From assembly GCA_963556495.2 (NCBI GenBank), contig OY747702.1:57657286-57721285 (forward strand): a stretch of 64,000 bases of DNA, read 5' to 3'. This stretch comes from Valencia hispanica. Taxonomy: Eukaryota; Chordata; Actinopteri; Cyprinodontiformes; Valenciidae. The translations under genes were made by a program, and so were the position numbers. Each line of letters begins with the position of its first letter. Positions within the stretch are counted from its first letter, which is position 1. This document shows, in pieces, positions 2,096 to 63,480 of the stretch. The notes under the pieces were generated by a model. That model was not told where the DNA came from. It did no database searches and saw nothing but the letters and a program-made list of their open reading frames with translations.

Positions 2096-3260
2096 ATAAA
2101 AAAAAATAAAAATGAACTAATTAACGGTTTGTTTCTCTCAGGGAAAATGATACTTTTGAGATTAATAATGTAAAAAGGATGATGGGGTGAATGACTAGAA
2201 TCTGCTTCATTGTAGTGAAAAAATTCTAACCTTTCTGCAAAATGAAGAATACTCTCCAGGAGTTTTGAATTTCAGTTTTCAGTTTAATAGTCTGGTTTTA
2301 ATGTGGAAAACAAATTAGTATAGAAAAAAAAAACTTAGATTTTGTTTTCCATTTTATTTTCTAGAGGGTAAAAATCTTAATATAAAAATACGTTGATTTC
2401 TATTTAAATGATATTGTTTTTCTTTTATTTGCCCCATCACACATTGTGAACTGGTGCTGATAATTGTTGTTTTTTTAACATACAGATAACAACAGCTGAC
2501 AAGGTAAATGTGCTGTACTCAAATGTTCAAAATGTTGTAAAAACTTATTTAAATCAAAAAGCTGTCAGGGAAGCATACAAGTTTTAAATAGAAATTGTGT
2601 AGGAACCCTTTGCTTAGGTTTGTTACCAAGGCTATTTAAAGTGCTATTAGGAGTTACTTGGACAAAGCAGCTGCTGCCCAAAACCATAACTTCATGAACA
2701 TTTGTTTTCTATTAAATTGTGTTATATTTAGTTGTGTAATAAAGAAATGTGTTTATGTATATTTTGCATGAAAATATCTGAATTTTTTCAATAAAAAAAA
2801 AAAAACATCTATATAAACTAGGTATCGGATACCCGATTAACTTAAAATCTTACACAAAGAAGAAGAAGCTCAGTGCAGTTTCATTGTCAGGTTCTTCCCG
2901 ACCGCTACTTCAACATGAAGAAGACAATGAGCAAAGTGAAGTAAAGTTTTCTTTGTTTATGAAATGTGCCATGACCTAACTGATTCCCAAACTTCACAGA
3001 CATTTAAATGAGGTCTTAGCCACAGCATTAAACTCTCATATAGAGATAATGATTTTAGTCATGGTACTAATGATGGCGATGCCATTCTATCGCTCCTATG
3101 TAGTGCTTTGAGCTAGACTCAAATATCTCCACAGACATTAGCTTGTAGTGGCATGAAATTATGTGTGGACATCTCTGCAACTGGAAGCTGAATCTTAATG
3201 ACTTCTGTGATTGCTTAAAGTATTCTACGGTGTCACTATGAGGCCAGAATACGTGTGGAG
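2096..3260. other. AT-rich stretch without recognised features
   Basis: No coding region or named repeat recognised. An A-run at about 2797-2809, shortly after AATAAA-like sequence, could be the tail of an old retroposed sequence, but nothing upstream identifies a source. Confidence 0.4.
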
Positions 3261-3261
3261 T

Positions 3262-3380
3262 TCAGTATTTCAAGCCTTTATATTTTGAAATTTTGATGAT
3301 TATGGCTTATAGAGAATGAAAACACAGGATATTAGAATATGTAAAAAAAGTTTCATATTTGAAACTCTAATCACATAATG
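3262..3380. mobile_element. Tc1/mariner-like element end, decayed
   Basis: Contains 'tatttcaagcctttat', a 'gattatggctta-agagaatgaaaac' block and 'tattagaatat'. The same blocks occur in 48893-49010 and, in part, at 53755-53795, where decayed transposase sequence follows. This is terminal sequence of that element family without an adjacent coding region. Confidence 0.5.
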
Positions 3381-3384
3381 AACT

Positions 3385-3790
3385 AAAACAAATGCAAGAA
3401 TCCAGCAGAGACTAGCAGAAAGCGAGGAGCTTAGAAATTGGGGGAACTTGATTAGGCTACTAGACAAGTAACAGCTGGTTGATTAAGAACAAGGTGCAGA
3501 TGTGAGAGACCAGCCAGGTAGGCTGAGGGAAAGGGACTAATAAACATAGGAGAAAAGTAAGGAGAATGTAAAAAATAACTAAAGTGAAACACTGAGCTAA
3601 GATGAAAGCAGGATTAGACTAAGATGAAAGCAACAGAATAAACAAGAAAAAGCTAAGTTCACGCTGAGTATAAATAAACAGAAATAATCAGAGAAATAAT
3701 CAAAAGCAAACACAGAAAAACACCCCAAGAGGAGTTTTAATGTTTGAAATGAGGGACATAAAATATTGAACTTTTTCACCTTGTTCAGTA
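3385..3790 (-). repeat. purine-rich dispersed repeat fragment (antisense)
   Basis: Rich in A/G with motifs such as 'gattaagaacaaggtgcag-tgtgagag' and 'aataaaca'. It resembles 18560-19250 and 39640-39920 in composition and in recurrent phrases (gctaattagg/ggtgagag/aggaaacaggac-like). Read on the minus strand it would be a C/T-rich segment like those in fish LTR-type repeats. Assignment to a family is inference. Confidence 0.3.
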
Positions 3791-3992
3791 TTTTTTAAAG
3801 ATGCACCTGTTGCCAACTGCTAACATTTTGCAAAATTCTGGAGCATCAACAAGGACCTGATATAATCATAGTTCACTTCATGTCTTCTTCAACCATTCTA
3901 AAGCCCGTTTTCTTGTGTTGGAATGACTAGTCGTGTCAAAATGTCAACAATGTAGCTGTTGATTTGAGGTAGAGTAGAAGAATTTGGATGTA

Positions 3993-4405
3993 CAGTGGAC
4001 CCCAGTATTTGTGAGGTTAGAGACGACAACCACCAGCAAATAGCTTACATCCACAAACCCTTTAAACCCACTTATAAAATCACATATGGCTGCCTATTTT
4101 AACAGTTCAAACGTCAAATATATATTAATATGTAATAACACAAACAGTGGCAAACATTTTAGCACTACCACAGAAGCCAATATCTACAGTCTTTCTTATC
4201 TCCAACCTTGGCGATACAATCAATCACAGAGGAATCGCAATAAAAAAAGGATGGTTCTCCAGGATTGGCTGCTTTGCAAACACCAGCCAATAGCGTGTCA
4301 AGTAGCATTCTGCATGGTTATTTTAACTTCCGAAGCTGCATTTTCTTTTAAATAATTTCGATATAATCTACAAAAAAATCAGCGAATAGAAAAGGGCTTG
4401 TGAAG
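3993..4405 (+). mobile_element. Tigger/pogo-like DNA transposon relic (non-autonomous)
   Basis: Starts TACAGTGGACCCCAGTATTTG followed by a 'gaggttagagacgacaacc' block, a typical left end of TcMar-Tigger-type elements with TA target sites. Near the right side, 'aaaatcagcgaatagaaaag' resembles the complementary 'gcgaata' motif of the other end. No transposase is present; the ORF at 4086-4355 has no recognisable domain. Confidence 0.45.
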
Positions 4406-4734
4406 TGCAACATTAATGCTGTATTCTTAGGTCTGTAAATCTTACCATGTTGAGTCTAAGATGCATTTGGGTGTTCAAAGACAAAAACAGACAGAAAAAA
4501 CGGTTTTTGAATGGAAAAGCAGGCTAAGATTAGGCTTGTGATATGTCCAGGACCTCAACTTTATTAAAAGTTAACAAAATTGCATTACAACCTGGGTCTG
4601 TAGCAGAATGCTGAACTAATTATTTCAATTATCCAGCCAGAATTGAATAGGATATTATTACATTTACATAATTTGACTACACACAGTCACATTGAAAGAA
4701 ATTAAAGAATATATTTGAAAATGCATTTATTTCA

Positions 4735-4855
4735 GTAACTTGGATCAATATGTGAAACACATTATATAGCTTAATTACACACTGACCAACATTTTCATGC
4801 CTTTATTTCTGTTAGTTATGATGATTTTCTGCTTATCTAAGATTATAATGTTACG
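4735..4855. mobile_element. Tc1/mariner-like terminal relic
   Basis: Contains 'gcttaattacacactga' and 'catgcctttatttctgttagttatgatgatt', related to the block at 53705-53790 ('acttaattacacactgag', '-taagattatggctta'). Short and decayed; no coding sequence. Confidence 0.35.
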
Positions 4856-4882
4856 TTACAGCCATATAAAAAATGCTTTAAC

Positions 4883-5175
4883 AGGCAAGGTGAGTTTATT
4901 TGTATAGCACAATTCATGTTACAGGACAATTCAAAGTGCTTTACATAAACCATCAAAAGCATTACAGCAGGGTGCAGAAAAAGCAAAAGTACAGGAATAA
5001 AAAGCATGATTTAAAATGAACCAAAATTAAAATAAAATAAAAATCGATCTATCTTAAAAGAAGCCGTACAGATTAAACTTAGAATAAAAACCTAATCAAA
5101 AGCATCTGAGAACAGGTGGGTCTTTAACCGGGATTTAAATAAACTGAGTGTTTACTGAGCTGATCTGAAAATGCT
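4883..5175 (-). mobile_element. LINE 3' end, truncated (antisense)
   Basis: Begins with an 'aggcaagg' tail, then 'tttatttgtatagcacaattc' and 'caaagtgctttacataaa', the antisense 3' end common to fish CR1/L2-type LINEs also seen at 9284, 59278 and, in sense orientation, at 23960 and 37090. The segment 'aacaggtgggtctttaaccgggatttaaa' is the antisense of the conserved C-terminal K-T-H-L-F region of such ORF2 proteins. Severely 5' truncated. Confidence 0.65.
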
Positions 5176-7590
5176 TTAATGCTTTAACACAGAGAAAATG
5201 CTTTTATACAGAAAATTATGTTTAATACCACTTTAAAGGTTTGTTTTTCTAAAAGGGGTTTTAATCTGACAAAAGAACATCTTAGGGACGGATGTATGGA
5301 AGGATATTTTAGGGAAAGTTCTGCGCTGGATATCATTTGTCCATAACAATAAAGCAGCCTTAGCTATATTTACTTAATCACTTAAAGCTGGTGTTCTACA
5401 AGCCAGGTTTTAGGTTTCGAGGGGCACTTGGAACTTCAAACATAAATGAGTTTGTGCATTTTTCTTTAGCACGATAACCAGTAACTGTGGGAAGACAGAG
5501 CTGAATGATAGCATAAGATCTGAGAGCGTTCAATTACTGCCACCACAGGTGTTCTCTGGGCTCAGGATGAGAGAAAATGGAGCAAACCACTGTCTGGACT
5601 TAGTGTTAGACGGCCCGTACAGCCTGCCAACCAAAGCAAAGGATGAGATAGTGAGCTGAATCCCAACACCTGGCTCTAAAGAGATTGGCATGCACACCCC
5701 GCAGACATTAGCTTCAACTCATCCGTGTGAAATGTAGATTCCTAGAGATGGCGAAACCAACAGGATTAGCTTCTCAGGTCTTTTGTCCACCTACTGTATT
5801 TTTCAGTGATGCAGTGTTCAGTCTACCCCACACAGTTATCAGAACCCTAGGCACAGAAAACCCCTTCACTGTCATTTTGTTAAGAAATCTGAGGGAGTTA
5901 ACTGTTTATATCCAATCGCACACAGGAAAGGCCATTTGTTGTTGTTGTTTGTCTTTTCAAAGCTCTTTCTGATTGGTGGTGTGCCTCATGGTGAATCTGT
6001 TTTTTTCACAAAATGCTATGCTCAACATCAAGCAATTAAAACTTTAATTACGATGAAATGAGAAACTGTCTCTGATGCTTAATTTCTCATTTACTCATGT
6101 AGGAGAGAGGCTATGAAGTTTCATTTAGCTTTGCCCACCAGGACACAATATAGATCTGCCACAAGAGCCAGACAAATATGCAGCATAACTTTCTTAAATC
6201 TCATTTGAGATTTAAGATTAAGAAAGCACACATAGCATACAGTAAGCATTGAGCCATTTAGGGGTATCGAGTTCAGACAGCATCAGAGATTTCATTGTTG
6301 AAAAATTCTTTCTTGCACTTAAAGCCTAAATTATTCTTATCAAAACCGTATACATAAAAGCAGATACCATCTACAAAATTGGTATGTTTAAATAAAAGTT
6401 TTTCTACACATTTGGGCTTTAAACAATTACAAGCTTCCTTTTTTCTATGTATCTTCTATGTTGGACCAGTTAGGAATAATTCCATACCTCTGCTTGAATT
6501 TCTAAAACCATTAGGGACTCTTGTGCAAATCAATCCTTTGATTTTAATCCATGATACATTTCAGGAAACCCTGAGCCTGCTTTGGTTTGTCTGGCCACCC
6601 TGAGATAAGAAAATTAAATATAAACTCAGCTCTATTACAAACTGAGCAATAGACTCCTTTTTAGCTCCTAGATACAGCAACTGTAATGGAGATCAATTAT
6701 CTACATGCATGTGCGCTCTTTTAACAATGCCCCAACCTGAATATTGATGCAGTCTGGTGCATCCAAATTTACATTTAACTGTGGGACACTGAATACAAAG
6801 TGGACTGGATTCTTTCGTTTTTAAGGCTGACTCATATTTTTCAGGTTCAAGGACTGTCCCTACTGTTGCATAGTTTCAAAAGATTTTGACGGTGATGAAA
6901 GTGATCATCTGTTTTCGAGTCCCTGCCAACTATGCTTGTTTTTTGGACCGTACAGGCTCCCCTTTGAATCAGAAATGAGGATTGCTTTTTTGTCACTGTC
7001 TGCCAGTCAACACGTTAAAGTGTTTGACTTATGATTGGACTCCCTCCCCTCTTAAGATTGAGCAACTCATAGGGCTATACAAACCACCAGCAGCCAGGGG
7101 AGTCCATCAGTATTCTGCACTCGTACTTGAACACAGCAACACGCCGGTCTGTTCGCTTTCTCACAATCCCACACTGCCTTGCAGATTGTTAGTATTCTTG
7201 TGTGCTGAAATCTGGTTTGCCCCGTATGTCACAGCTGGCATGTCTTCCTGTTATGTCTCTATGCTCCTGCTGCAGTTAAGGGGGTGTTCACGCTAAAGGA
7301 AGGAAATGCAGAATAAGTGAAGTAATTGAGTTAATTTGTCTGACTACACAGGTGTCACCGAGCCTGACTGTAAAAATATTGGCAAATCAAAACATGTGGG
7401 AGCTTGAATCCTTAGTAAACATGAACAGCTTATGAATTATTCTTCAGACATTTAGCTGACTTGAGGTGAATTTCCGAGCACACTCTCATTTAATATTCAC
7501 CACTCATATTTCTTATACTATCCTTTTATCTTATTTCTTTTAAAGTTCTCAGAGGGATTTTATAAGTTACTCAAAGACTCAAAAGTGACA
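5176..7590. other. long stretch without recognised genes or repeats
   Basis: Several short ORFs (for example 5727-5972, 6379-6603, 6982-7296) lack recognisable domains and look random. The one structural feature I see is the hairpin at 6193-6216. Part of this may be low-copy sequence; conservation cannot be judged without comparison. Confidence 0.4.
6193..6216. repeat. perfect 11-bp inverted repeat
   Basis: CTTAAATCTCA (6193-6203) and TGAGATTTAAG (6206-6216) are exact complements around a 2-nt centre. It may be the middle of an old foldback MITE; no wider inverted repeat is evident. Confidence 0.6.
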
Positions 7591-30340: not shown

Positions 30341-33300
30341 AACTGGGCTGCCACCTTATCGTGGTGGAGGGGTTTGAGTGTCCCAATGATCCTAGGAGCT
30401 ATGTTGTCGGGGGCTTTTGCTCCTGGTAGGGTCACCCATGGCAATTTGGTTCTAGGTGAGGGATCAGACAAAGTGCAGCCCAAAGACCCCTATGAAGAAA
30501 ACGACAGATGGACTCAGTGTTCCCTCGCCCGGACGCGGGTCACCGGGGCCCCCCTCTGGAGCCAGGCCTGGAGGTGGGGCACGTTGGCGAGCGCCAATTA
30601 CCCATGGGGCCCGGTCGGGCTTAGCCCGAAGAGGTAACATGGGCCCCCCTTCCCATGAGCTCACCACCTGTGGGAGGGGCCATAGGGGTCAGGTGCTGTG
30701 CAGGATGGGCGGCGGCCAAAGGCGGGGACCTTGGCGGTCCGATCCTCGGCTGCAGAAGCTGGCTCTCGGGACGTGGAACGTCACCTCTCTGGCGGGGAAG
30801 GAGCCGGAGCTGGTGTGCGAGGTTGAGAGGTTCCGACTGGACATCGTCGGACTCACCTCGGCGCACGGCTCTGGCTCTGGAACCCGTCTCCTCGAGAGAG
30901 GTTGGACTCTCTTCCACTCTGGGGTTGCCCCCGCTGAGAGGTGCCGAGCTGGGGTGGGCATACTTGTTGCCCCCCATCTCGGCGCCTGTATGTTGGGGTT
31001 TACCCCGGTGAACGAGAGGGTAGCCTCCCTCCGCCTTCGGGTGGGGGGACGGGTCCTGACTGTTGTTTGTGCTTACGCGCCAAACAGCAGATTAGATTAC
31101 CCACCCTTCTTGGAGTCTTTGGAAGGGGTGCTGGAGAGTGCTCCTCCTGGGGACTCCCTTGTTCTGCTGGGGGACTTCAACGCTCACGTGGGCAATGACA
31201 GTGAGACCTGGAGGGGTGTGGTTGGGCGGAATGGCCCCCCCGATCTAAACCCGAGTGGTGTCTTGTTATTGGACTTCTGTGCTCGTCATGGATTGTCCAT
31301 AACAAACACCATGTTCAAGCATAAAGGTGTCCATATGTGCACTTGGCACCAGGACACCTTAGGCCGCAACTCAATGATCGACTTGGTTGTCGTCTCATCT
31401 GATCTGCGGCCGCATGTTTTGGACACTCGGGTGAAGAGAGGGGCAGAGCTGTCCACTGACCACTACCTGGTGGTGAGTCGGCTCCGATGGTGGGGGAGGA
31501 CGCCGGACAGACCTGGAACGCCTAAACGTGTTGTGAGGGTCTGCTGGGAACGTCTGGCAGAGTCTCCTGTCAGAAGGAGCTTTAACTCACACCTCCGGCA
31601 GAACTTTGAACACGTCCCGGGGGAGGCGGGGGACATCGAGTCCGAGTGGATCATGTTCCGCGCCTCCATTGCCGAGGCGGCTGACCGAAGCTGTGGCCGC
31701 AAGGTGGTCGGTGCCTGTCGTGGCGGCAGCCCCCGAAACCGGTGGTGGACACCGGCGGTAAGGGATGCTGTCAGGCTGAAGAAGGAGTCCTACCGGGTCT
31801 TTTTGGCTTGTAGGACCCCTGAAGCAGCTGATAGGTACCGACAGGCCAAGCGGGATGCGGCTCGGATGGTTGCTGAGGCAAAAACTCGGGCGTGGGAGGA
31901 GTTTGGAGAGACCATGGAAAACGACTTCCGTACGGCTTCGAAGCAATTCTGGTCCACCATCCGGCGTCTCAGGGGGGGAAAGCGGTCTGCCACCAACACT
32001 GTTTACAGTGGGGATGGTGTGCTGCTGACCTCGACGCGGGACGTTTTGGGTCGGTGGATGGAATACTTCGAAGACCTCCTCAATCCCACCGGCACGCCTT
32101 CCAATCTGGAAGCAGGGTTTGGGGACTTGGGGTCGGGCTCTCCAATCTCTGGTGCCGAGGTCACCGATGTCGTTAAAAAGCTCCTCGGTGGCAAGGCTCC
32201 GGGGATGGATGAGATTCGACCGGAGTTCCTCAAGGCTCTGGATGTTGTGGGGCTGTGTTGGTTAACGCGGCTCTGCAATATTGCGTGGACATCGGGGGCA
32301 GTTCCCTTGGATTGGCAGACCGGGGTGGTGGTCCACCTGTTTAAAAAGGGGGACCACAGGGTGTGTTCCAACTACAGGGGGATCACACTTCTGAGCCTCC
32401 CTGGTAAGGTCTATTCAGGGGTTCTGGAGAGGAGGGTCCGACGGATAGTCGAACCTCGGATCCAGGAGGAACAATGCGGTTTTCGTCCTGGCCGTGGAAC
32501 ACTGGACCAGCTCTACACCCTCAGCAGGGTCCTGGAGGGTGCGTGGGAGTTCGCCCAACCGGTCTACATGTGTTTTGTGGACTTGGAGAAGGCGTTCGAC
32601 CGTGTCCCTCGGGGGGCCCTGTGGGGGGTGCTCCGGGAGTATGGGGTACCGGGCCCCTTGATACGGGCTGTTAGGTCCCTGTACGACCGGTGCCAGAGTT
32701 TGGTTCGCATTGCCGGCAGTAAGTCGGGCTTGTTTCCGGTGAGAGTTGGACTCCGCCAAGGTTGCCCTTTGTCACCGATCCTGTTCCTAACTTTTATGGA
32801 CAGGATTTCTAGGCGCAGCCAAGGCGTTGCGGGGATCCGTTTTGGTGGCCTCAGGATCGGGTCTCTGCTTTTTGCAGATGATGAGGTCCTGTTGGCTTCA
32901 TCGGAGCGTGATCTACAGCTTTCGCTGGAGCTGTTCGCAGCCGAGTGTGAAGCGGCTGGGATGAGAATCAGCACCTCCAAATCCGAGGCCATGGTCTTGA
33001 GCCGGAAAAGGGTGGGGTGCCTCCTCCGGGTCAGGGATGGGGTCCTTCCCCAAGTGGAGGAGTTTAAGTATCTGGGGGTCTTGTTCACGAATGAGGGAAA
33101 AATGGAGCGGGAGATCGATAGACGGATTGGTGGGGCATCTGCAGTTATGCGGGCGCTCTACCGGTCTGTCTTGGTGAAGAGAGAGCTGAGCCAAAAGGCG
33201 AAGCTCTCGATTTACCGGTCGATCTACGTTCCTACCCTCATCTATGGTCACAAACTCTGGGTGGTGACCGAAAGAACGAGATCACGGATACAAGCGGCTG

Positions 33301-33690
33301 AAATGAGTTTCCTCCGCAGAGTGTCTGGGCTCTCCCTTAGAGATAGGGTGAGAAGCTCAGTCATCCGGAGGGGGCTCAGAGTAGAGCCGCTGCTTCTCCA
33401 CATCGAGAGGAGTCAGTTGATGTGGCTCGGGCATCTGGTCAGGATGCCTCCTGGACGCCTCCCTGGTGAGGTGTTTCAGGCACGTCCCACCGGGAGGAGG
33501 CCCAGGGGAAGGCCCAGGACACGCTGGAGGGACTATGTTTCTCGGCTGGCCTGGGAGCGCCTTGGGGTTCCTCCCGAGGAGCTGGAACAAGTGGCTGGGG
33601 AGAGTGAAGTCTGGGTCTCTTTGCTTAGGCTGCTGCCCCCGCGACCCGACCCCGGATAAGCGGAAGAAAATGGATGGATGGATGGAACTT
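30341..33690 (+). mobile_element. full-length RTE-type LINE
   Basis: A 5' segment 'ctgggctgccaccttatcgtggtggaggggtttg' is followed by a single long ORF, a very short 3' UTR ('ataagcggaagaaaatggatggatggatgg') and a (GGAT)n tail ending at about 33686. Short 3' UTR, simple tail and one endonuclease-RT ORF are typical of RTE-clade LINEs, abundant in fish (Rex3/Expander-like). GC content is far higher than the flanks. No clear target duplication was found, so exact ends are approximate. Compared with all other elements here it is strikingly undamaged. Confidence 0.88.
30456..33659 (+). CDS. RTE-type LINE endonuclease-reverse transcriptase, intact 1067-codon ORF
   Basis: Encodes the protein that would nick target DNA and reverse-transcribe the element's RNA at the nick. 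Domain order: a basic N-terminal stretch (1-100); an APE-like endonuclease at about 102-345, with TWNVTS (Asn108), [10 protein letters not shown] (Asp240) and STDHYLV (Asp335/His336); a linker; reverse transcriptase at about 570-870, with [36 protein letters not shown] (Asp709), [10 protein letters not shown] and LLFADDE (FADD at 806-809); then a C-terminal region with a W-L-GHL-RM block and a basic [12 protein letters not shown] segment. The acidic residue usually found in the L-x-E motif of APE enzymes is not evident where LTSAH occurs (133-137). Length fits RTE ORFs. The start at 30456 is the first in-frame Met and lies in 5' sequence of uncertain coding status. No stop or frameshift over 3.2 kb argues for a recent insertion. 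Other-strand and other-frame ORFs across it are shadows. Confidence 0.92.

Positions 33691-40645: not shown

Positions 40646-40647
<2 letters not shown>
40205..40647 (+). mobile_element. LINE 3' UTR (TTGA-tailed family)
   Basis: Starts with 'aggtttttaagaggagggtcaagactcatttttttaacatagc', a remnant of the C-terminal 'FK-RLKTHFF' codons. It continues through GC-rich 3' UTR ('cttggggggcggtggtcggctgtggctgcc', 'gttcttaagtgtttgtgtgcatgga', 'ggtataactgtgatcatgc') and ends 'aaaagtgctttataaaaaaaagtt'. The antisense of the same UTR is at 59380-59690 and 61510-61800. Confidence 0.65.

Positions 40648-40735
<88 letters not shown>
40648..40735. repeat. (GATT)n microsatellite, LINE tail
   Basis: About 22 uninterrupted TTGA units immediately after the LINE 3' UTR, so it is an expanded retrotransposon tail. 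The minus-strand 'INQSINQS' ORF (40802-40581) is its translation product. Confidence 0.95.
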
Positions 40736-40970: not shown

Positions 40971-40978
40971 CAACTCTA
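40971..40978. repeat. left copy of candidate target-site duplication
   Basis: CAACTCTA. The same 8 bp occur at 47632-47639, directly after the right end of the inverted element. Because the terminal inverted repeat itself seems to start TATGG, the true duplication is either CAACTC (6 bp) or CAACTCTA (8 bp). Confidence 0.65.
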
Positions 40979-41460
40979 TGGAAAGCCTTTTGAGCATTTA
41001 TTAGATATCTTTGATATCCAACTTTAAATCCATGTACTAGTACACACTTCATCCTCACTAGTAAGACAATTTGGCACACTAGTATAACGATTAGGGTGCA
41101 CTAGTATAACGACTGTGTCTTACTTGTCACGTTTTTTCCACTACTAGTGTCACTTTTGGACTACTAGTATGCAATCAAACCTTACTAGTAAACTACTATG
41201 CAGCACTAGTGACACTACTAGACCCAACTAGTAGGCATGTGTCACGCACTAGTAGCCTCCTGGACCCTACTAGTAGCGCAAAAATGCCCACAAGTAGCAC
41301 TAGTAAGGCATTTTTGACCTCACTAGTGCTACTAGTAAGACACAAAATGCACACTAGTAGTACTAGTGGGGTGTGTTTTCCCTTACTAGTACTACTAGTA
41401 ACAGCAAGGATGCACACTAGTAGTACTAGTGAAAGCCAAAATCTCCACTAGTAGTTCTAG
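40977..41460 (+). repeat. left terminal inverted repeat
   Basis: Matches the reverse complement of 47180-47631 in order, block by block: 'gcatttattagatatctttgatatccaac', 'tttaaatccatgtactagtacac', 'caatttggcacactagtataacgac-ta', 'gacacagtcgttat' complement, 'cacgttttttccactactagtg', 'ggcatgtgtcacgcactagtagcctcctg-accctactagtagcgcaaaaat' and beyond. Differences are point changes and short indels. Confidence 0.85.
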
Positions 41461-41690
41461 TGGACATTTTGGGTGATACTAGTAGTACTAGTAAGCTTAA
41501 ACGAATCCCGCTAGTACTACAAGTGGACATTTTTGATATCACTAGTACTACTTGTAAGGGCCAGAGCAACCACTAGAAGCACTAGTTGGGGTATTTAGGA
41601 TCTTACGAGTGCTACTAGTGAAGGCAAAAACGTCCACTAGTAGTACAAGTACGGGTCCAACTGTCCACTAGTAGCACTACTCAAATTAAT
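41040..41690. repeat. outer left ACTAGT array
   Basis: Pairs of ACTAGT separated by 3 nt (for example CACTAGTAGTACTAGTG), with spacers of about 14-16 nt. Unlike the central array, nearly every spacer here has its own sequence. This leads to a period near 30 bp without simple tandem identity. Beyond about 41460 the match to the right arm becomes only periodic. Confidence 0.85.
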
Positions 41691-42190
41691 TCAATAAAAG
41701 TGCTAATTAGGAGGTGTGGACAGCATGCACTGAAACTTCTTGCTATTGGCTCTTCAGAAAGAATTGCACTCAGCCAAAATTTAACCCTATAAAGCCTGAT
41801 GAACTTTCACTGTTTTTGGCAATAACAATAATGAAAATTAATAATATAATTAAAAATAACTATTATATATGTACTATATACATAATGAATTAAGTCATAC
41901 TAATATATGTCTGAGAGGAAAATGATTAATGATTATGTTATAGGCCTCTCTTTCTTATCATGAGGAAGTTTAAGCTGCGACAGTAAATAACAGCTAGTGC
42001 TGATTGGGAAAGAGAAAATTTTAATTGTAACTGGTAGTCTTACCTTTTTACATAACCTATAATGGTTGTTTGTTGATTATATAATGAATTTGACATTCAG
42101 ATTCAAGTGTATGCCTATGCTTCATAATTATTCACTGTCCTTAACACTTAAAATACTCTTTTGGAAACATGATGTCATTTGATTTTGGTG
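41691..42190. other. left AT-rich unique spacer of the element
   Basis: About 500 bp with no ACTAGT, no ORF of note, and no inverted match by eye to the right spacer (45366-45835). It includes an AT-rich 'aataatataattaaaaataactattatatatgtactatatac' stretch that could melt easily. Confidence 0.6.
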
Positions 42191-42739
42191 CCCACTAGTG
42201 GCCTGTTAATGCCCACTAGTAGCACTTAATGGCCACTAGTGCTACAAGTGGGCATTTTGAGGCCACTAGTAGAACTAGTGGGCACTTAACGGCCACTAGT
42301 ATCACTAGTAGCCACATAGTGCCCACAAGTAGCACTAGTGGGCATTTTGAGGCCACTAGTAGGACTAGTGGGCACATAGCGGCCACAAGTAGCACTAGTA
42401 GCACTAAGCTTAGAAGCCACTAGTAGCACTAGTGGGAATTTAACGGCCACTAGTACCACTAGTGGCCATTTTGAGGCCACCAGTAGAACTAGTGGGCACT
42501 TAACTACCACTAGTAGGCACATAGCGGCCACTAGTACCACTAGTGGGCATTTTGAGGCCACTAGTAGAACTAGTAGGCACATAGCGGCCACTAGTAGCAC
42601 TAGTAGCACTAAGCTTAGAAACCACTAGTAGCACTAGTGGGCACTTAACGGCCACTAGTACCACTAGTGGGCATTTTGAGGCCACTAGTAGAACTAGTGG
42701 GAACTGAACGGCCACTAGTACCACTAGTAGGCACATTGC

Positions 42740-43690
42740 GGCCACTAGTAGTACTAGTAGCACTAAGCTTAGAAGCCACTAGTAGGCACATAGCGGCCAC
42801 TAGTAGAACTAGTAGCACTAAGCTTAGAAGCCACTAGTAGCACTAGAGGGCACTTAACGGCCACTAGTAGTACTAGTAGCACTAAGCTTAGAAGCCACTA
42901 GTAGCACTAGTGGGTACTTAACGGCCAGTAGTAGGCACACAGCGGCCACTAGTAGCACTAAGCTTAGAAGCCACTAGTAGCACTAGTGGGCACTTAACGG
43001 CCACTAGTACCACTAGTGGGCATTTTGAGGCCACTAGTAGCACTAGTGGGCACTTAACGGCCACTAGTACCACTAGTGGGCATTTTAAGGCCACTAGTAC
43101 CACTAGTAGGCACATAGCGGCCACTAGTAGTACTAGTAGCACTAAGCTTAGAAGCCACTAGTAGCACTAGTGGGCACTTAACGGCCACTAGTACCACTAG
43201 TAGGCACATAGCGGCCACTAGTAGAACTAGTAGGCACATAGTGGCCACTAGTAGCACTAGTAGGCACATAGTGGCCACTAGTAGCACTAGTAGGCACATA
43301 GCGGTCACTAGTAGCACTAGTAGGCTTTTCAAGGCCACTAGTAGCACTAGTGGGCACTTAGCGGCCACTAGTAGCACTAGTGGGCACTTAGAGGCCACTA
43401 GTGCTACTAGTGGCTTCTAAGCTTAGTGCTACTAGTGGCCGCTGTGTGCCTACTAGTGGCCGTTAAGTACCCACTAGTGCTACTAGTGGCTTCTAAGCTT
43501 AGTGCTACTAGTACTCCTAGTGGCCGTTAAGTGCCCACTAGTGCTACTAGTGGCTTCTAAGCTTAGTGCTACTAGTTCTACTAGTGGCCGCTATGTGCCT
43601 ACTAGTGGCTTCTAAGCTTAGTGCTTCTAGTACTACTAGTGGCCGTTAAGTGCCCACTAGTGCTACTAGGGGCTTCTAAGCTTAGTGCTA
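42740..43690. repeat. ordered inverted duplication inside the central array
   Basis: The rare variants GGGTACTTAACGGCC and AGGCACACAGCGGCC occur adjacent at about 42908-42950. They recur in reverse-complement order at about 43436-43475, with matching neighbours on both sides (the CTAAGCTTAG units and the AGAAC-type pair). The right side (about 43410-43690) is therefore an inverted copy of a specific left block (about 42740-42978), not independent expansion; about 430 bp lie between the two arms. Confidence 0.8.
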
Positions 43691-44881
43691 CTAGTGCTAC
43701 TAGTGGCCGCTAAGTGCCTACTAGTGCTACTAGTGGCCTCTAAATGTCCACTAGGGCTACTAGTGGCCTCTATGTGCCCACTAGTGCTACTAGTGGCCTC
43801 TAAATGTCCACTAGTGCTACTAGTGGCCGTTAAGTGCCTACTAGTGCTACTAGTGGCCGCTAAGTGGCTACTAGTGCTACTAGTGGCCTCTTAATGTCCA
43901 CTAGTGCTACTAGTGGCCGTTAAGTGCCTACTAGTGGCCGCTAAGTGGCTACTAGTGCTACTAGTGGCCTCTAAATGTCCACAGGTGCTACTAGTGGCCA
44001 TTAAGTGCCCACTAGTGCTACTAGTGGCCTCTAAGTGGCTACTAGTGCTACTAGTGGCCTCTAAATGTCCACTAGTGCTACTAGTGGCCTCTAGGTGCCC
44101 ACTAGTGCTACTAGTGGCCGCTAAGTGGCTACTAGTGCTACTAGTGGCCTCTAAATGTCCAGTAGTGCTATTAGTGGCTTCTAAGCTTAGTACTACTAGT
44201 GCTACTAGTGGCCACTAAGTGCCTACTAGTGCTACTAGTGGCCACTATGTGCCTACTAGTTCTACTAGTGGCCGCTATGTGCCTACTAGTGGTACTAGTG
44301 GCCGTTAAGTGCCCACTAGTGCTACTAGGGGCTTCTAAGCTTAGTGCTACTAGTGCTACTAGTGGCCGCTAAGTGCCTACTAGTGCTACTAGTGGCCTCT
44401 AAATGTCCACTAGGGCTACTAGTGGCCTCTATGTGCCCACTAGTGCTACTAGTGGCCTCTAAATGTCCACTAGTGCTACTAGTGGCCGTTAAGTGCCTAC
44501 TAGTGCTACTAGTGGCCGCTAAGTGGCTACTAGTGCTACTAGTGGCCTCTTAATGTCCACTAGTGCTACTAGTGGCCGTTAAGTGCCTACTAGTGGCCGC
44601 TAAGTGGCTACTAGTGCTACTAGTGGCCTCTAAATGTCCACAGGTGCTACTAGTGGCCATTAAGTGCCCACTAGTGCTACTAGTGGCCTCTAAGTGGCTA
44701 CTAGTGCTACTAGTGGCCTCTAAATGTCCACTAGTGCTACTAGTGGCCTCTAGGTGCCCACTAGTGCTACTAGTGGCCGCTAAGTGGCTACTAGTGCTAC
44801 TAGTGGCCTCTAAATGTCCAGTAGTGCTATTAGTGGCTTCTAAGCTTAGTACTACTAGTGCTACTAGTGGCCACTAAGTGC
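43632..44881. repeat. recent tandem duplication, 659-bp period
   Basis: About 590 bp from 43632 recurs from 44291 with no difference that I can see, including the atypical units CTAGGGGCTTC, CCACTAGGGCTACTAG, CCACAGGTGCTAC and AGTAGTGCTATTAG. The ORFs at 43685-43894/44344-44553 and 43904-44218/44563-44877 are identical pairs with this offset. Identity this high inside a diverged array implies very recent duplication or an assembly repeat. Confidence 0.9.
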
Positions 44882-45365
44882 CTTCTAGTGCTACTAGTGG
44901 CCTCTAAATGTCCACTAGGGCTACTAGTGGCCTCTATGTGCCCACTAGTGCTACTAGTGGCCTCTAAATGCCCACTAGTGCTACTAGTGGCCTCTAAATG
45001 CCCACTAGTGCTACTAGTGGCCTCTAAATGCCCACTAGTGCTACTAGTTGCTTCTAAGCTTAGTGCTACTAGTGCCCGCTAAGTGCTTACTAGTGCTACT
45101 AGTGGCCTCTAAGTGGCTTCTAATGCTACTAGTGGCTTCTAAGCTTATTCTTACTAGTGCTAATAGTGGCCGCTAAGTGGCTTCTAATGCTACTAGTGGC
45201 TTCTAAGCTTAGTGCTACTAGTGGCCGCTAAGTGGCTACTAGTGGCCTCTACATGCCCACTAGTGCTACTAGTAGCTTCTAAGCTTAGTGCCACTAGTGT
45301 TACTAGTGGCCTCGAAATTCCCACTAGTGGCAACTAAGTGTCCACCAGTGCCAATAGTGGCTGCT

Positions 45366-45835
45366 AAGCTAACATTAGCAGGTACTGTATACAGTCAGGC
45401 CATGTTGCCATAACAGTACATGCTGTCTTAATTCAAAAAATGACTAATAACGCTGGCAACAATTAGCTGTCTTATTTTCTCACATTGACAGCTTTAGAAA
45501 ACTTGAAAACATAGCACTACAAATGACAATAATATACTGTTATGAACCAGAAAATAAGAAATAAGGGACTATGGAGGAAATGAAACAAACTATTACATTA
45601 GTAATTCTGTGCATATCTTAGCCACTAAAATGTCAAGGGTGCCACATGGGCTATTTTATGGGTCTATCTGAATAAAATAGTTCTGATTAAGTTAACAAAA
45701 AAATTGGCACATCTTTTAGAATGACTGCTGTTAAACACTTTAGTATCCAGCGTGGCCACTTTAAGGCTTTAAGCACACAGTTTGAACATCCACCAATCAA
45801 AATCCATGTCCCACCTTCCTCATTTGCATGCAGTC
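45366..45835. other. right AT-rich unique spacer of the element
   Basis: About 470 bp lacking ACTAGT. It contains 'gtactgtatacagtcaggcc' at the array edge. The minus-strand ORF 45878-45687 has no recognised domain. Not an inverted copy of the left spacer by eye. Confidence 0.6.
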
Positions 45836-47190
45836 CACTAGTCCTACTAGTGACACTAGTGGCTGCATGTTGCAACATACATGTTAACTAGTAAAGGCTA
45901 GAATGTCCACTAGCAACACTAGTGGACAGTAACACACAATATTATGATTTTACTAGTACCACTAGTAAAAGCCAAAAAGTGTGCTAGTAGCACTAGTGAG
46001 ACTTTTTTGATTTCACTAGTACCACTAGAAGAGGGCAACATGTCTACTAGTACTACTAGTAAGGGCCAAAATGTGTACTAGTAGCACTAGTAAGTGGCAA
46101 AATATCCACTAGTAGCACAAGTAGGGGACTTTTACACCTTACTAGTAGTACTAGTGAGATCAAAAATGCTCACTAGTGTTACTAGTGGCAAGGTTTTGCT
46201 TTTTACTAGTGTGACTGGTAGAAGAAAGTTTGTCTCACTCGTGAGCTTCTGAACGTCACATGTAAAGGCTTTGGCTGTACTAGTGCTCATCTGCGCATCA
46301 CTAGTTCGCAACTAGTATACCACTAGTATGCAATTACACACTACTAGTGCGTGACTACACACTACTAGTGCAACATTCCTTTAACATGTGAGACATTTCT
46401 GCACACTGGTAGGACAACTTTGGCATACTAGTAGGACAGCTACATCTTACTAGTGAGGGAAAACTGTGCACTAGTTGACAATTCTGTACCGCTAGTGCTA
46501 CTAGTGACATCATAAATTTCTACCAGTTAACATCTAGTGCTGCATTAGTAGTACTAGTAGCATACAGATGTCAACTAGTGCAAAGTTTTGCCTCACTAGT
46601 AGGACGTAGCTGTCCTACTAGTATGTCAAATTTGTCCTACTAGTGTGCAGAAATGTCTCACATGTTACAGAAACGTTGCACTAGTAGTGTGTAGTCACGC
46701 ACTAGTAGTGTGCAATTGCATACTAGGGGTAAGCTAGTTGAGAACTAGTGATGGGCAGATGCGCACTAGTACAGCCAAAGCCTTTTCATGTGACTTTTAG
46801 AAGCTCACTAGTGAGACAAACTTTCTTCTACTAGTTACCCTAGTAAATAACAAAACCTTGCCACTAGTAACACTAGTGAGCATTTTTGATCTCACTAGTA
46901 CTACTAGTAAGGTGTAAAAGTCCCCTACTTGTGCTACTAGTGGATATTTTGCCACTTACTAGTGCTACTAGTACACATTTTGGCCCTTACTAATAGTACT
47001 AGTAGAGTAAAACATGCCTCACTAGTAGCACTAGTAGACATGTTGGCCTTTTCTTGTAGTACTATTAATATGATAAAAGTCTCACTAGTGCTACTAGTAG
47101 ACTGTCTGGCTTTTACTAGTTTTACTAGTAAGGTAAAACACATCCTCACTAGTACCACTAGTGGATATTTTAGCTTTCTCTAGTACTACT
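45836..47190. repeat. nested palindrome of ACTAGT units, centre near 46520
   Basis: Sequences left of centre ('aagggccaaaatgtgtactag', 'gtggcaaaatatccactag', 'caagtaggggacttttacacc', 'gcgtgactacacactactag', 'tgtgagacatttctgcacac', 'gtgcactagttgaca') recur right of centre as reverse complements in mirror order, out to 'ggcccttact' and 'gacatgttgg' near 46990-47050. A non-palindromic core of about 85 bp lies at roughly 46480-46565. Arms differ by indels. Confidence 0.8.
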
Positions 47191-47631
47191 AGTGAGCATC
47201 TTCGTTGTTACTAGTAGTACTAGTAAGAAAAAAACCACCCCACTAGTTCTACTAGTGGACATTCTGTCTCTTACCAGTAGATTTAGTGAGGTCAAAATGC
47301 CTTACCAGTGCTACTAGTCGGTATTTTTGCGCTACTAGTAGGGTTCAGGAGGCTACTAGTGCGTGACACATGCCTACTAGTTGGGTCTAGTAGTGTCACT
47401 AGTGCTGCACAGTAGTTTACTAGTAAGGTTTGATTCCATACTAGTAGTCCAAAAGTGGCACTAGTAGTGGAAAAAACGTGACAAGTAAGACACAGTCGTT
47501 ATACTAGTGCACCCTAGTCGTTATACTAGTCTGCCAAATTGTCTTACTAGTGAGGATGAAGTGTGTACTAGTACATGGATTTAAAGTTGGATATCAAAGA
47601 TATCTAATAAATGCTCAATCGGCTTTCCATA
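47180..47631 (-). repeat. right terminal inverted repeat
   Basis: Inverted counterpart of 40977-41460, ending GGCTTTCCATA at 47631. Beyond it the sequence becomes ordinary and ACTAGT disappears, giving a sharp right boundary. Confidence 0.85.
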
Positions 47632-47639
47632 CAACTCTA
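47632..47639. repeat. right copy of candidate target-site duplication
   Basis: CAACTCTA, same orientation and sequence as 40971-40978. Confidence 0.65.
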
Positions 47640-52059: not shown

Positions 52060-53585
52060 CAGTGGCTTGCAAAAGTATTCGGCCCCCTTGAACTTTTCCA
52101 CATTTTGTCACATTACAGCCACAAACATGAATCAATTTTATCGGAATTCCACGTGAAAGACCAATACAAAGTGGTGTACACGTGAGAAGTGGAACAAAAA
52201 TCATATATGATTCCAAACATTTTTTACAAATAAATAACTGAAAAGTGAAAAGACATTGCCTGATGACTAAATAGAGTGCACCTGTGTGTAATCTAATGTC
52301 AGTACAAATACAGCTGCCCTGTAACGGCCTCAGAGGTTGTCTAAGAGAATGTTGGGAGCAACAACACCATGAAGTCCAAAGAACACACCAGACAGGTCAG
52401 GGATAAAGTTATTGAGAAATTTAAAGCAGGCTTAGGCTACAAAAAGATTTCCCAAGCCTTGAACATCCCACGGAGCGCTGTTCAAGCGATCATTCAGAAA
52501 TGGAAGGAGTATGGCACAACTGTAAACCTACCAAGACAAGGTCGTCCACCTAAACTCACAGGCCGAACAAGGAGAGCGCTGATCAGAAATGCAGCCAAGA
52601 GGCCCATGGTGACTCTGGATGAGCTGCAAAGATCTACAGCTCAGGTGGGGGAATCTGTCCATAGGACAACTATTAGTGGTGCACTGCACAAAGTTGGCCT
52701 TTATGGAAGAGTGGCAAGAAGAAAGCCATTGTTAAAAGAAAACCATAAGAAGTCCCGTTTGCAGTTTGCCACAAGCCATGTGGGGGACACAGCAAACATG
52801 TGGAAGAAGGTGCTCTGGTCAGATGAGACCAAAATGGAAAACACTATGTGTGGCGGAAAACTAACACTGCACATCACTCTGAACACACCATCCCCACTGT
52901 CAAATATGGTGGTGGCAGCATCATGCTCTGGGGGTGCTTCTCTTCAGCAGGGACAGGGAAGCTGGTCAGAGTTGATGGGAAGATGGATGGAGCCAAATAC
53001 AGGGCAATCTTGGAAGAAAACCTCTTGGAGCCTGGAAAAGACTTGAGACTGGGGCGGAGGTTAACCTTCCAGCAGGACAACGACCCTAAACATAAAGCCA
53101 GGGCAACAATGGAATGGTTTAAAACAAAACATATCCATGTGTTAGAATGGCCCAGTCAAAGTCTAGATCTAAATCCAATCGAGAATATGTGGCAAGATCT
53201 GAAAGCTGATGTTCACAAACGCTGTCCATCTAATCTGACTGAGCTGGAGCTGTTTTGCAAAGAAGAATGGGCAAGAATTTCAGTCTCTAGATGTGCAAAG
53301 CTGGTAGAGACGTACCCTAAAAGACTGGCAGCTGGAATTGCAGCAAAAGGTGGTTCTACAAAGTATTGACTCAGGGGGCTGAATAATTACGCACACCCCA
53401 CTTTCAGTTATTTATTTGTAAAAAATGTTTGGAATCATGTATGATTTTCGTTCCACTTCTCACGTGTACACCACTTTGTATTGGTCTTTCACGTGGAATT
53501 CCAATAATATTGATTTATGTTTGTGGCTGTAATGTGACAAAATGTGGAAAAGTTCAAGGGGGCCGAATACTTTTCCAAGCCACTG
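52060..53585 (+). mobile_element. Tc1-like transposon, nearly complete (1526 bp)
   Basis: Flanked by TA (52058-52059 and 53586-53587). The terminal inverted repeats start CAGTGGCTTGCAAAAGTATT on the left, and CAGTGGCTTGGAAAAGTATT is the complement on the right. They extend about 180 bp (52060-52243 and about 53403-53585) with few mismatches. Between them lies a single transposase gene with one frameshift. Structure and length are normal for Tc1 elements. Confidence 0.95.
52369..53369 (+). pseudogene. Tc1 DD34E transposase with a single frameshift
   Basis: The first frame (52369-about 52836) opens MKSKEHTRQVRDKVIEKFKA and holds two helix-turn-helix regions separated by a GRPPK AT-hook-like motif (residues 58-62), then the first catalytic Asp in WSDETK (Asp152). 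Around 52836-52848 the frame is lost; compared with other Tc1 copies about 20 bp coding the segment after DETK appears deleted. The second frame runs to 53369 with GGGSIMLWGC, FQQDNDPKH (second Asp) and LNPIENMW (Glu); exactly 34 residues separate the last two. The protein would cut the element out at its terminal repeats. As written it is inactive, although the terminal repeats could still serve a transposase supplied in trans. Confidence 0.93.
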
Positions 53586-62481: not shown

Positions 62482-63480
62482 TTCAATTCAATTCAATTCA
62501 ATTCAATTCAATTTATTTATATAGCGCCAATTCACAACAGATGTCATCTCAAGGCACTTAACAAGAAGTCATTTCAATACATTTAAACAAACATTCCAAT
62601 CAGTTAAAAAGTTTGCTATTTAAGGAATCCCAGCAGATTGCATCAGTCATTGGAGTGAGGTTGGGCAGACTTTCCAACCACAGCAATCCTTCAGCAATCC
62701 CTCATACTGAGCAATCATGTAGCGACGGTGGAGAGGAAAAACTCCCCTTTAACAGGAAGAAACCTCCAACAGAACCAGGCTCAGTAGGAGCGGCCATCTG
62801 CCACGACCGTCTGGTGGTTTGAGAAGACAGAGCAGAGACACAGAAGGAACAGAAGATCTGATATAAGAGAACTTTCTATGTTACAGAAAGTAAAAAGTTG
62901 ATAACATGACACGGAGGATATTCAGTTACTGGGAGGATCATCCCAGTCGATGTCCCCCGTCTAACAGGGCATTGCAGCCAAGCAGGATACCAGACCAGGT
63001 ATATCTTCTATGGAGAGAAAAACATTGAGAGAAAACAAAGTTAACAGTCGAAATAACAGAATGTACTGTAATACAACTGGAGAGTCGTAGGAGAAAAGGA
63101 AGTAGCAGAGTGAAGAAAATTGGTAAGTCTGTCCTCCAGCAGTCTAAGCCTATAGCAGCATAACTACAGAGATAGCTCAGGATGACCTAAGCCACTCTAA
63201 CTATAAGCTTTATCAAAAAGGAAAGTTTTAAGCCTGGCCTTAAAAGTAAACAGAGTGTCTGCCTCACGGACTAAAGCTGGGAGCTGGTTCCACAGGAGAG
63301 GAGCCTGATAACTAAAAGATCTGCCTCCCATTCTACTTTTAGAGATCCTAGGAACTACAAGTAAACCTGCAGTCTGAGAGCGAAGTGCTCTGTTAGGAAC
63401 CTATGGAACAATTAGATCTCTGATGTATGACGGAGCTTGATTATTAAGGGCTTTGTATGTAAGAAGAAGGATCTTATATT
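62482..63480 (-). mobile_element. antisense LINE 3' part inside the MITE
   Basis: Opens with (AATTC)n (62482-62512) and 'aatttatttatatagcgccaattcacaacagatgtcatctcaaggcac', an antisense LINE tail and 3' UTR. From about 63180 to 63480 the minus strand encodes the C-terminal ORF2 pattern (K-LLLTYKAL/I---APSY, 'RALRSQTAGLLVVPRISKSRMG', 'LLWNQLPAL-READT', 'FKARLKTFLF'), read from 'ccttaaaagtaaacagagtgtctgcctcacgg', 'tggttccacaggagaggag' and neighbouring blocks. A different family from the (GCCTT)-tailed LINEs. Confidence 0.75.

Follow-up and report, generated by a model that had tools for sequence, protein, structure and literature searches.

The window analysed here is a stretch of 64,000 nucleotides from the Valencia hispanica genome (assembly GCA_963556495.2, contig OY747702.1, positions 57,657,286 to 57,721,285, forward strand), and it contains at 40977-47631 an element filled with arrays of the palindrome ACTAGT. 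The element opens with TATGGAAAGCC and closes with GGCTTTCCATA; with one mismatch allowed, TATGGAAAGCC has two matches in the window, both exact, at 40977-40987 (+) and 47621-47631 (-). An earlier note on this sequence had interpreted it as a large DNA transposon of foldback type, non-autonomous and bounded by inverted ends and a target duplication, and the data presented below support this. Besides the terminal inverted repeats, the element contains two more foldbacks and two array-free segments, U1 and U2, so that its parts are arranged as follows.

40971-40976, + strand: left target-site duplication, CAACTC
40977-41677, + strand: left terminal inverted repeat, opening with TATGGAAAGCC, with its first ACTAGT at 41036
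41684-42190, + strand: segment U1, array-free, found in all 18 complete copies
42193-45370, no strand: inner foldback, an array of ACTAGT doublets
45371-45820, + strand: segment U2, array-free, found in 16 of the 18 complete copies
45950-47131, no strand: second palindrome with ACTAGT sites and 85% identity between its arms; it overlaps the right inverted repeat in its inner part
46931-47631, - strand: right terminal inverted repeat, closing with GGCTTTCCATA
47632-47637, + strand: right target-site duplication, CAACTC

The ACTAGT motif occurs 277 times in the element, compared to 6 times across the remaining 57 kb of the window, and 200 first-order Markov simulations gave an expected mean of 15.9 and a maximum of 25 for the element. 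Chance origin of the ACTAGT excess and of the family ends is ruled out by these simulations and by a terminal-pattern control of zero (below). The hundreds of palindromes that the earlier note had estimated and the sharp loss of ACTAGT outside the element are therefore borne out by the counts, whereas its phrase that the element is made almost entirely of palindromes is loose; the arrays cover 83% of the element length, but ACTAGT itself accounts for 25% of the letters. The commonest start-to-start distances are 9 bp (93 of 276 intervals) and 21 bp (89 of 276), and the main rhythm of the array is one of doublets, in which two starts lie 9 bp apart and the next follows after 21 bp, giving 30 bp per doublet. 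Across 18 complete copies of the element, 3849 of 4291 ACTAGT sites conform to the extended motif YACTAGTR. The outer inverted repeats measure 701 bp each at 85% identity, longer than the inverted homology of about 480 bp given previously, and of the direct repeat CAACTC(TA) proposed for the two edges, the 6-bp CAACTC stands and the 8-bp version does not.

As previously noted, no recognisable protein domain was found; no Rfam family matched the element, and a Pfam scan of 10 of its 31 frames of at least 60 amino acids gave no match above cut-off. A match to DUF2807 in the element frames (E 2e-4, 21.6 bits against a cut-off of 24.2) was taken as a repeat artefact. U1 and U2 were also considered as coding remnants and rejected, since none of the 10 frames scanned had a Pfam match over cut-off and a comparison of the segments with 17 of the integrase-related loci read gave nothing better than E 0.3. 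A first look at the assembly gave 109 candidates for U2, 40 of which were scored.

Other copies of the element, one of the checks proposed in the earlier note, were found in the assembly from which the window comes, which has 1.29 Gb in 29 contigs. The left 484 bp used as a query gave 507 first-look candidates, and all 40 that were scored, the window copy included, aligned along the entire 484 bp with a rounded identity of 100%. We counted 218 occurrences of the terminal pattern TATGGAAAGCCNNTTGAGCATTTA across the assembly and none of its reversed control, from which we infer a family of about a hundred copies. Twenty of the 39 other scored matches were read, each in a 9-kb stretch. Both ends were present in 17 of these 20, and within the same 9 kb the right end was not seen for the other three (L013, L015, and L027). 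The 17 and the window copy make 18 complete elements, which range from 2801 to 8019 bp in length and from 99 to 374 in ACTAGT count and all of which have TATGG..CCATA termini. Target duplications of 6 bp directly abut these termini and are exact in 12 of the 18, including the window copy, and agree in five of six letters in 2 more; when flanks were exchanged between copies as a mispaired control, 0 of 306 pairings gave an exact 6-bp match.

An uninterrupted target was also found for one copy. L019 is inserted in an interspersed repeat, and its flanks, joined minus one duplication, match uninterrupted copies of that repeat at 62905-63298 of the window (94.7%), in L016 (95.7%), and in L021 (88.8%); these matches extend 13-15 bases beyond the junction, where the repeat match stops. 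The joined flanks also match the repeat in L032, at 95.5% over 89 bases. With regard to the empty sites that the earlier note had called for, L019 thus has uninterrupted forms of its target repeat; the empty site of the window copy itself was not found. The identical ends, the target duplications, and the uninterrupted target of L019 rule out a satellite without mobility. The family is thus one of mobile DNA transposons, apparently without genes of their own, as no transposase was seen in the copies read. Weaker matches of the empty-site type were obtained for L012 (68%) and L025 (67%) to a Tc1-like remnant of the window. In addition, extra sequence in L016 and L025 resembles an inserted repeat, and part of the L016 piece occurs uninterrupted at other loci.

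Three further features of the window may be recorded here. The remnant just mentioned is a Tc1/Sleeping Beauty-like transposase at 52345-53369 (+), and L012 and L025 are apparently inserted in its relatives. An open frame of 1067 amino acids with endonuclease and reverse transcriptase domains lies at 30456-33659 (+) and belongs to a long interspersed nuclear element (LINE) without stops. A run of the tetranucleotide TTGA, with 22 exact copies, occupies 40647-40735, 240 bp to the left of the ACTAGT element.

The ends and duplications can be compared with published transposon groups as far as these are covered by the portions of the literature consulted. IS3EU elements are described there as having TA..TA ends and usually 6-bp duplications (PMC10045372), and fungal IS3EU families as having TAYGG..CCRTA ends and inverted ends longer than 30 bp (PMC12730594). 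The ACTAGT family shares the end pattern in all 18 complete copies, has exact 6-bp duplications in most of them, and has inverted ends far beyond 30 bp in the window copy. This likeness to IS3EU/GingerRoot indicates that the element does not represent a new superfamily, since the combination of TATGG..CCATA ends and 6-bp duplications is already published as typical of IS3EU, and the suggestion in the earlier note that it lies outside known groups is not upheld. The differences from IS3EU/GingerRoot are that no transposase was seen in the ACTAGT copies read and that kilobase palindrome arrays are without mention in the IS3EU literature consulted.

A different placement is suggested by the shape of the element. 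Foldback-type elements such as FB were considered in the form of an FB/Mutator-type assignment, which would account for the foldback shape and the long, repetitive inverted ends. In the excerpts available, the foldback element Tetris is reported to have 8-10 bp duplications and is assigned to Mutator (PMC4079207). Like the ACTAGT element, Tetris has long inverted ends composed of internal tandem units, is variable in length, and is apparently non-autonomous, but its units are ~220 bp long, compared to the ~30-bp doublets described here. The likeness is architectural because the Tetris duplications are 8-10 bp, whereas those of the ACTAGT family are 6 bp; as the TATGG..CCATA ends are also those of IS3EU, an FB/Mutator origin is very improbable.

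Copies with near-identical ends differ mainly in the length of their arrays (99-374 sites). In the left 1214 bp, each of the 18 copies lies 1-10 bases off the consensus, gaps not counted, a closeness which indicates that the spread of the family was recent. The inner foldback of the window copy includes an exact direct duplication of 591 bp (43634-44224, with the second copy 659 bp downstream), which implies that the arrays change by duplication. L044 and L045 have the same TATGGAAAGCC ends and contain 155 and 198 ACTAGT, respectively, neither with an exact duplication; against the window copy, their longest alignments show 65-81% identity, their longest frame among those of at least 90 amino acids is 189 amino acids, and they look older than the other copies. 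The variation in array length and the exact duplication would be expected if the arrays were passengers in the same IS3EU-type transposon, the palindromes promoting slippage and template switching and thereby expanding without any binding function.

The passenger explanation was confronted with the rates of change inside and outside the motif. Sequences descended from a common copy were compared, with motif windows taken from ACTAGT in either sequence; an earlier variant of the test, which conditioned on intact motifs, is biased towards constraint, and the weaker either-sequence windows were used instead. The ratio of the change rate at ACTAGT letters to that at other letters was 0.31-0.86 in eight comparisons, with p<0.05 in five, suggesting that ACTAGT evolves at about half the rate of its spacers in the older comparisons. 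This slower change argues against mere passengers, whereas the lack of significant constraint among the young copies fits them. Together with the regular spacing, the slower change would fit any bound protein, including a host chromatin, insulator, or replication factor whose binding to the palindromes aids the persistence or expression of the element.

Evidence bearing on these possibilities comes from a second family of the same genome. With 150 of 477 candidates scored, the assembly has 159 places that match the integrase core PF24764, and none of 14 control genomes has any. One class of these places has an open frame of 393-397 amino acids, in which PF24764 and rve are over cut-off and a helix-turn-helix is under cut-off, and the strand opposite this frame contains an exon-like frame with a HECT domain match. 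Two gene-bearing copies have in common the left end TATGGGGTGCCGTTTG, directly before which their flanks diverge. This end agrees in 13 of 16 letters with TATGGAAAGCCGTTTG, a form that is frequent among the 100 ACTAGT-family ends listed; the right end of the window element has GATTG there. The interval from the left end to the integrase gene contains an array of TAAATATTTA, usually in the form RCTAAATATTTAGY, at a spacing of 19-20 bp; one gene-bearing copy has 29 sites and the other has 83, where simulation predicts 0.12 for the latter. The integrase frame and the HECT exon stand beside an array of CTAAATATTTAG and a left end of the form TATGGGGTGCC in L040 (G000:C17:5103500-5111500) and in L043, L038, and L046 on C15. 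The proposal that gene and array form one element rests on the left end and the interior that L040 shares with these three loci.

When up to 2 mismatches are allowed, TATGGGGTGCCGTTTGTAAAG has 1806 matches in the assembly, compared to 1 for the control, so that this family greatly outnumbers that of ACTAGT. Three short paired copies of 303, 640, and 1218 bp contain 1 (central), 16, and 45 CTAAATATTTAG, respectively, counted with up to 2 mismatches, for which the simulated means are 0, 0.34, and 0.72. Their duplications are an exact 6-bp GTTACC in the 1218-bp copy, 5 of 6 letters in the 640-bp copy, and 3 of 6 in the 303-bp copy. This second IS3EU-like family (L040, L043, and L048-L050) resembles the ACTAGT family in its TATGG...GCCGTTTG ends, its variable palindrome arrays, and the 6-bp duplication of L050, and differs from it in its own palindrome, CTAAATATTTAG at 19-20 bp, and in the integrase gene and HECT exon near the left end of L040. 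The shared layout with a different palindrome suggests that the arrays are docking sites for a mobilising protein. The presence of another palindrome at similar spacing in a related family also counts against passenger arrays, which we consider unlikely, though a serious competitor. Element-specific proteins would account for different palindromes in two related families more readily than a common host factor, and binding by a host protein appears improbable.

An autonomous element with the same ends and a transposase, which in an IS3EU family would be an IS3-like DDE enzyme, is a further check proposed in the earlier note. It was sought among the 10 listed PF24764 loci (L029-L038), the stretches L039-L042, and the TATGGAAAGCC-ended L044 and L045, none of which is the partner; with 100 of 218 ends listed and 150 of 477 PF24764 candidates scored, this search is far from complete. 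L039 has an open frame of 320 amino acids at 3257-4216 (-) from another PF24764 class, with no palindrome array seen around it, and several matches of like score and length suggest that this frame class is a multi-copy family. In L042, a run of N at ~3192-7501 adjoins a PF24764 match, and the very long frames there stem from the N run.

Collectively, the reading that we favour, by a modest measure of confidence, is that the ACTAGT element belongs to a recently active, non-autonomous IS3EU foldback family whose palindrome is most likely a recognition site of a transposase or accessory protein. An integrase-type transposase, presumably supplied in trans, would move the family, and the YACTAGTR doublets every 30 bp would be the putative site recognised by this enzyme or by an accessory DNA-binding protein that the autonomous partner supplies. 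A large number of sites may raise the chance that both element ends are captured and paired, the arrays would lengthen and shorten through duplication, and each family apparently has a key of its own, ACTAGT in one and CTAAATATTTAG in the second IS3EU-like family. We infer the binding of the palindromes, the identity of the transposase, and the effect of site number. Recognition sites for an element-encoded protein are favoured because the motif appears to change more slowly and because two palindromes at similar spacing occur in two families with related ends.

Several results weigh against this reading. Four of the 18 complete copies are without a convincing duplication (two with 4 of 6 letters, one with 3, and one with 0). 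The other three constraint comparisons gave p = 0.22, 0.32, and 0.86, and the eight comparisons share sequences, one being part of another. In the young left ends, variable sites number 6 of 174 within the motif and 60 of 1040 elsewhere, a difference that is not significant (p=0.28), and the right-end alignment of 15 copies points in the opposite direction, with motif changes of 0.0277 against 0.0224 elsewhere, in an alignment that is uncorrected and whose fixed 2250-bp cut may mix array positions. Furthermore, the right end of the gene-bearing copies of the second family was searched for and not found, and no autonomous partner of the ACTAGT family was met among the loci examined.

Binding of this kind has a precedent in Galileo, a Drosophila element of the P superfamily, for which the sections of the report available describe purified THAP domains that bind several sites in the long repetitive ends, as shown by footprinting and electrophoretic mobility shift assay (PMC3688188). 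Its authors propose that many sites give specificity or offset length (PMC3688188). Galileo resembles the ACTAGT family in its long, internally repetitive inverted ends, with the repeated transposase-binding sites demonstrated experimentally in its case, but it belongs to another superfamily and has three mapped sites, compared to hundreds of palindromes here. A broader lock-and-key scheme can be put forward tentatively, as a possibility short of even chances: each IS3EU-type family of this genome would fill its ends with its own palindrome, in tens to hundreds of copies set at about two helical turns and read by a co-evolving element-encoded domain, array length would tune mobility, and gene-less copies might outcompete coding ones through their larger number of sites. 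Judged against the literature, the array design seems new, as a mostly open-access search yielded no description of it in the text covered.

It has long been asked why the inverted ends of some transposons run to kilobases of repeats; Galileo, with its three mapped sites, is the one biochemical case met in the literature covered by our search. The natural copies, spanning 99-374 sites in the ACTAGT family and 1-83 in the second family, would provide a ready dose series on site number versus transposition, and two palindrome keys in one genome would allow a specificity-swap comparison between the families. Moreover, because the ACTAGT family appears to be young, its working partner may still exist.

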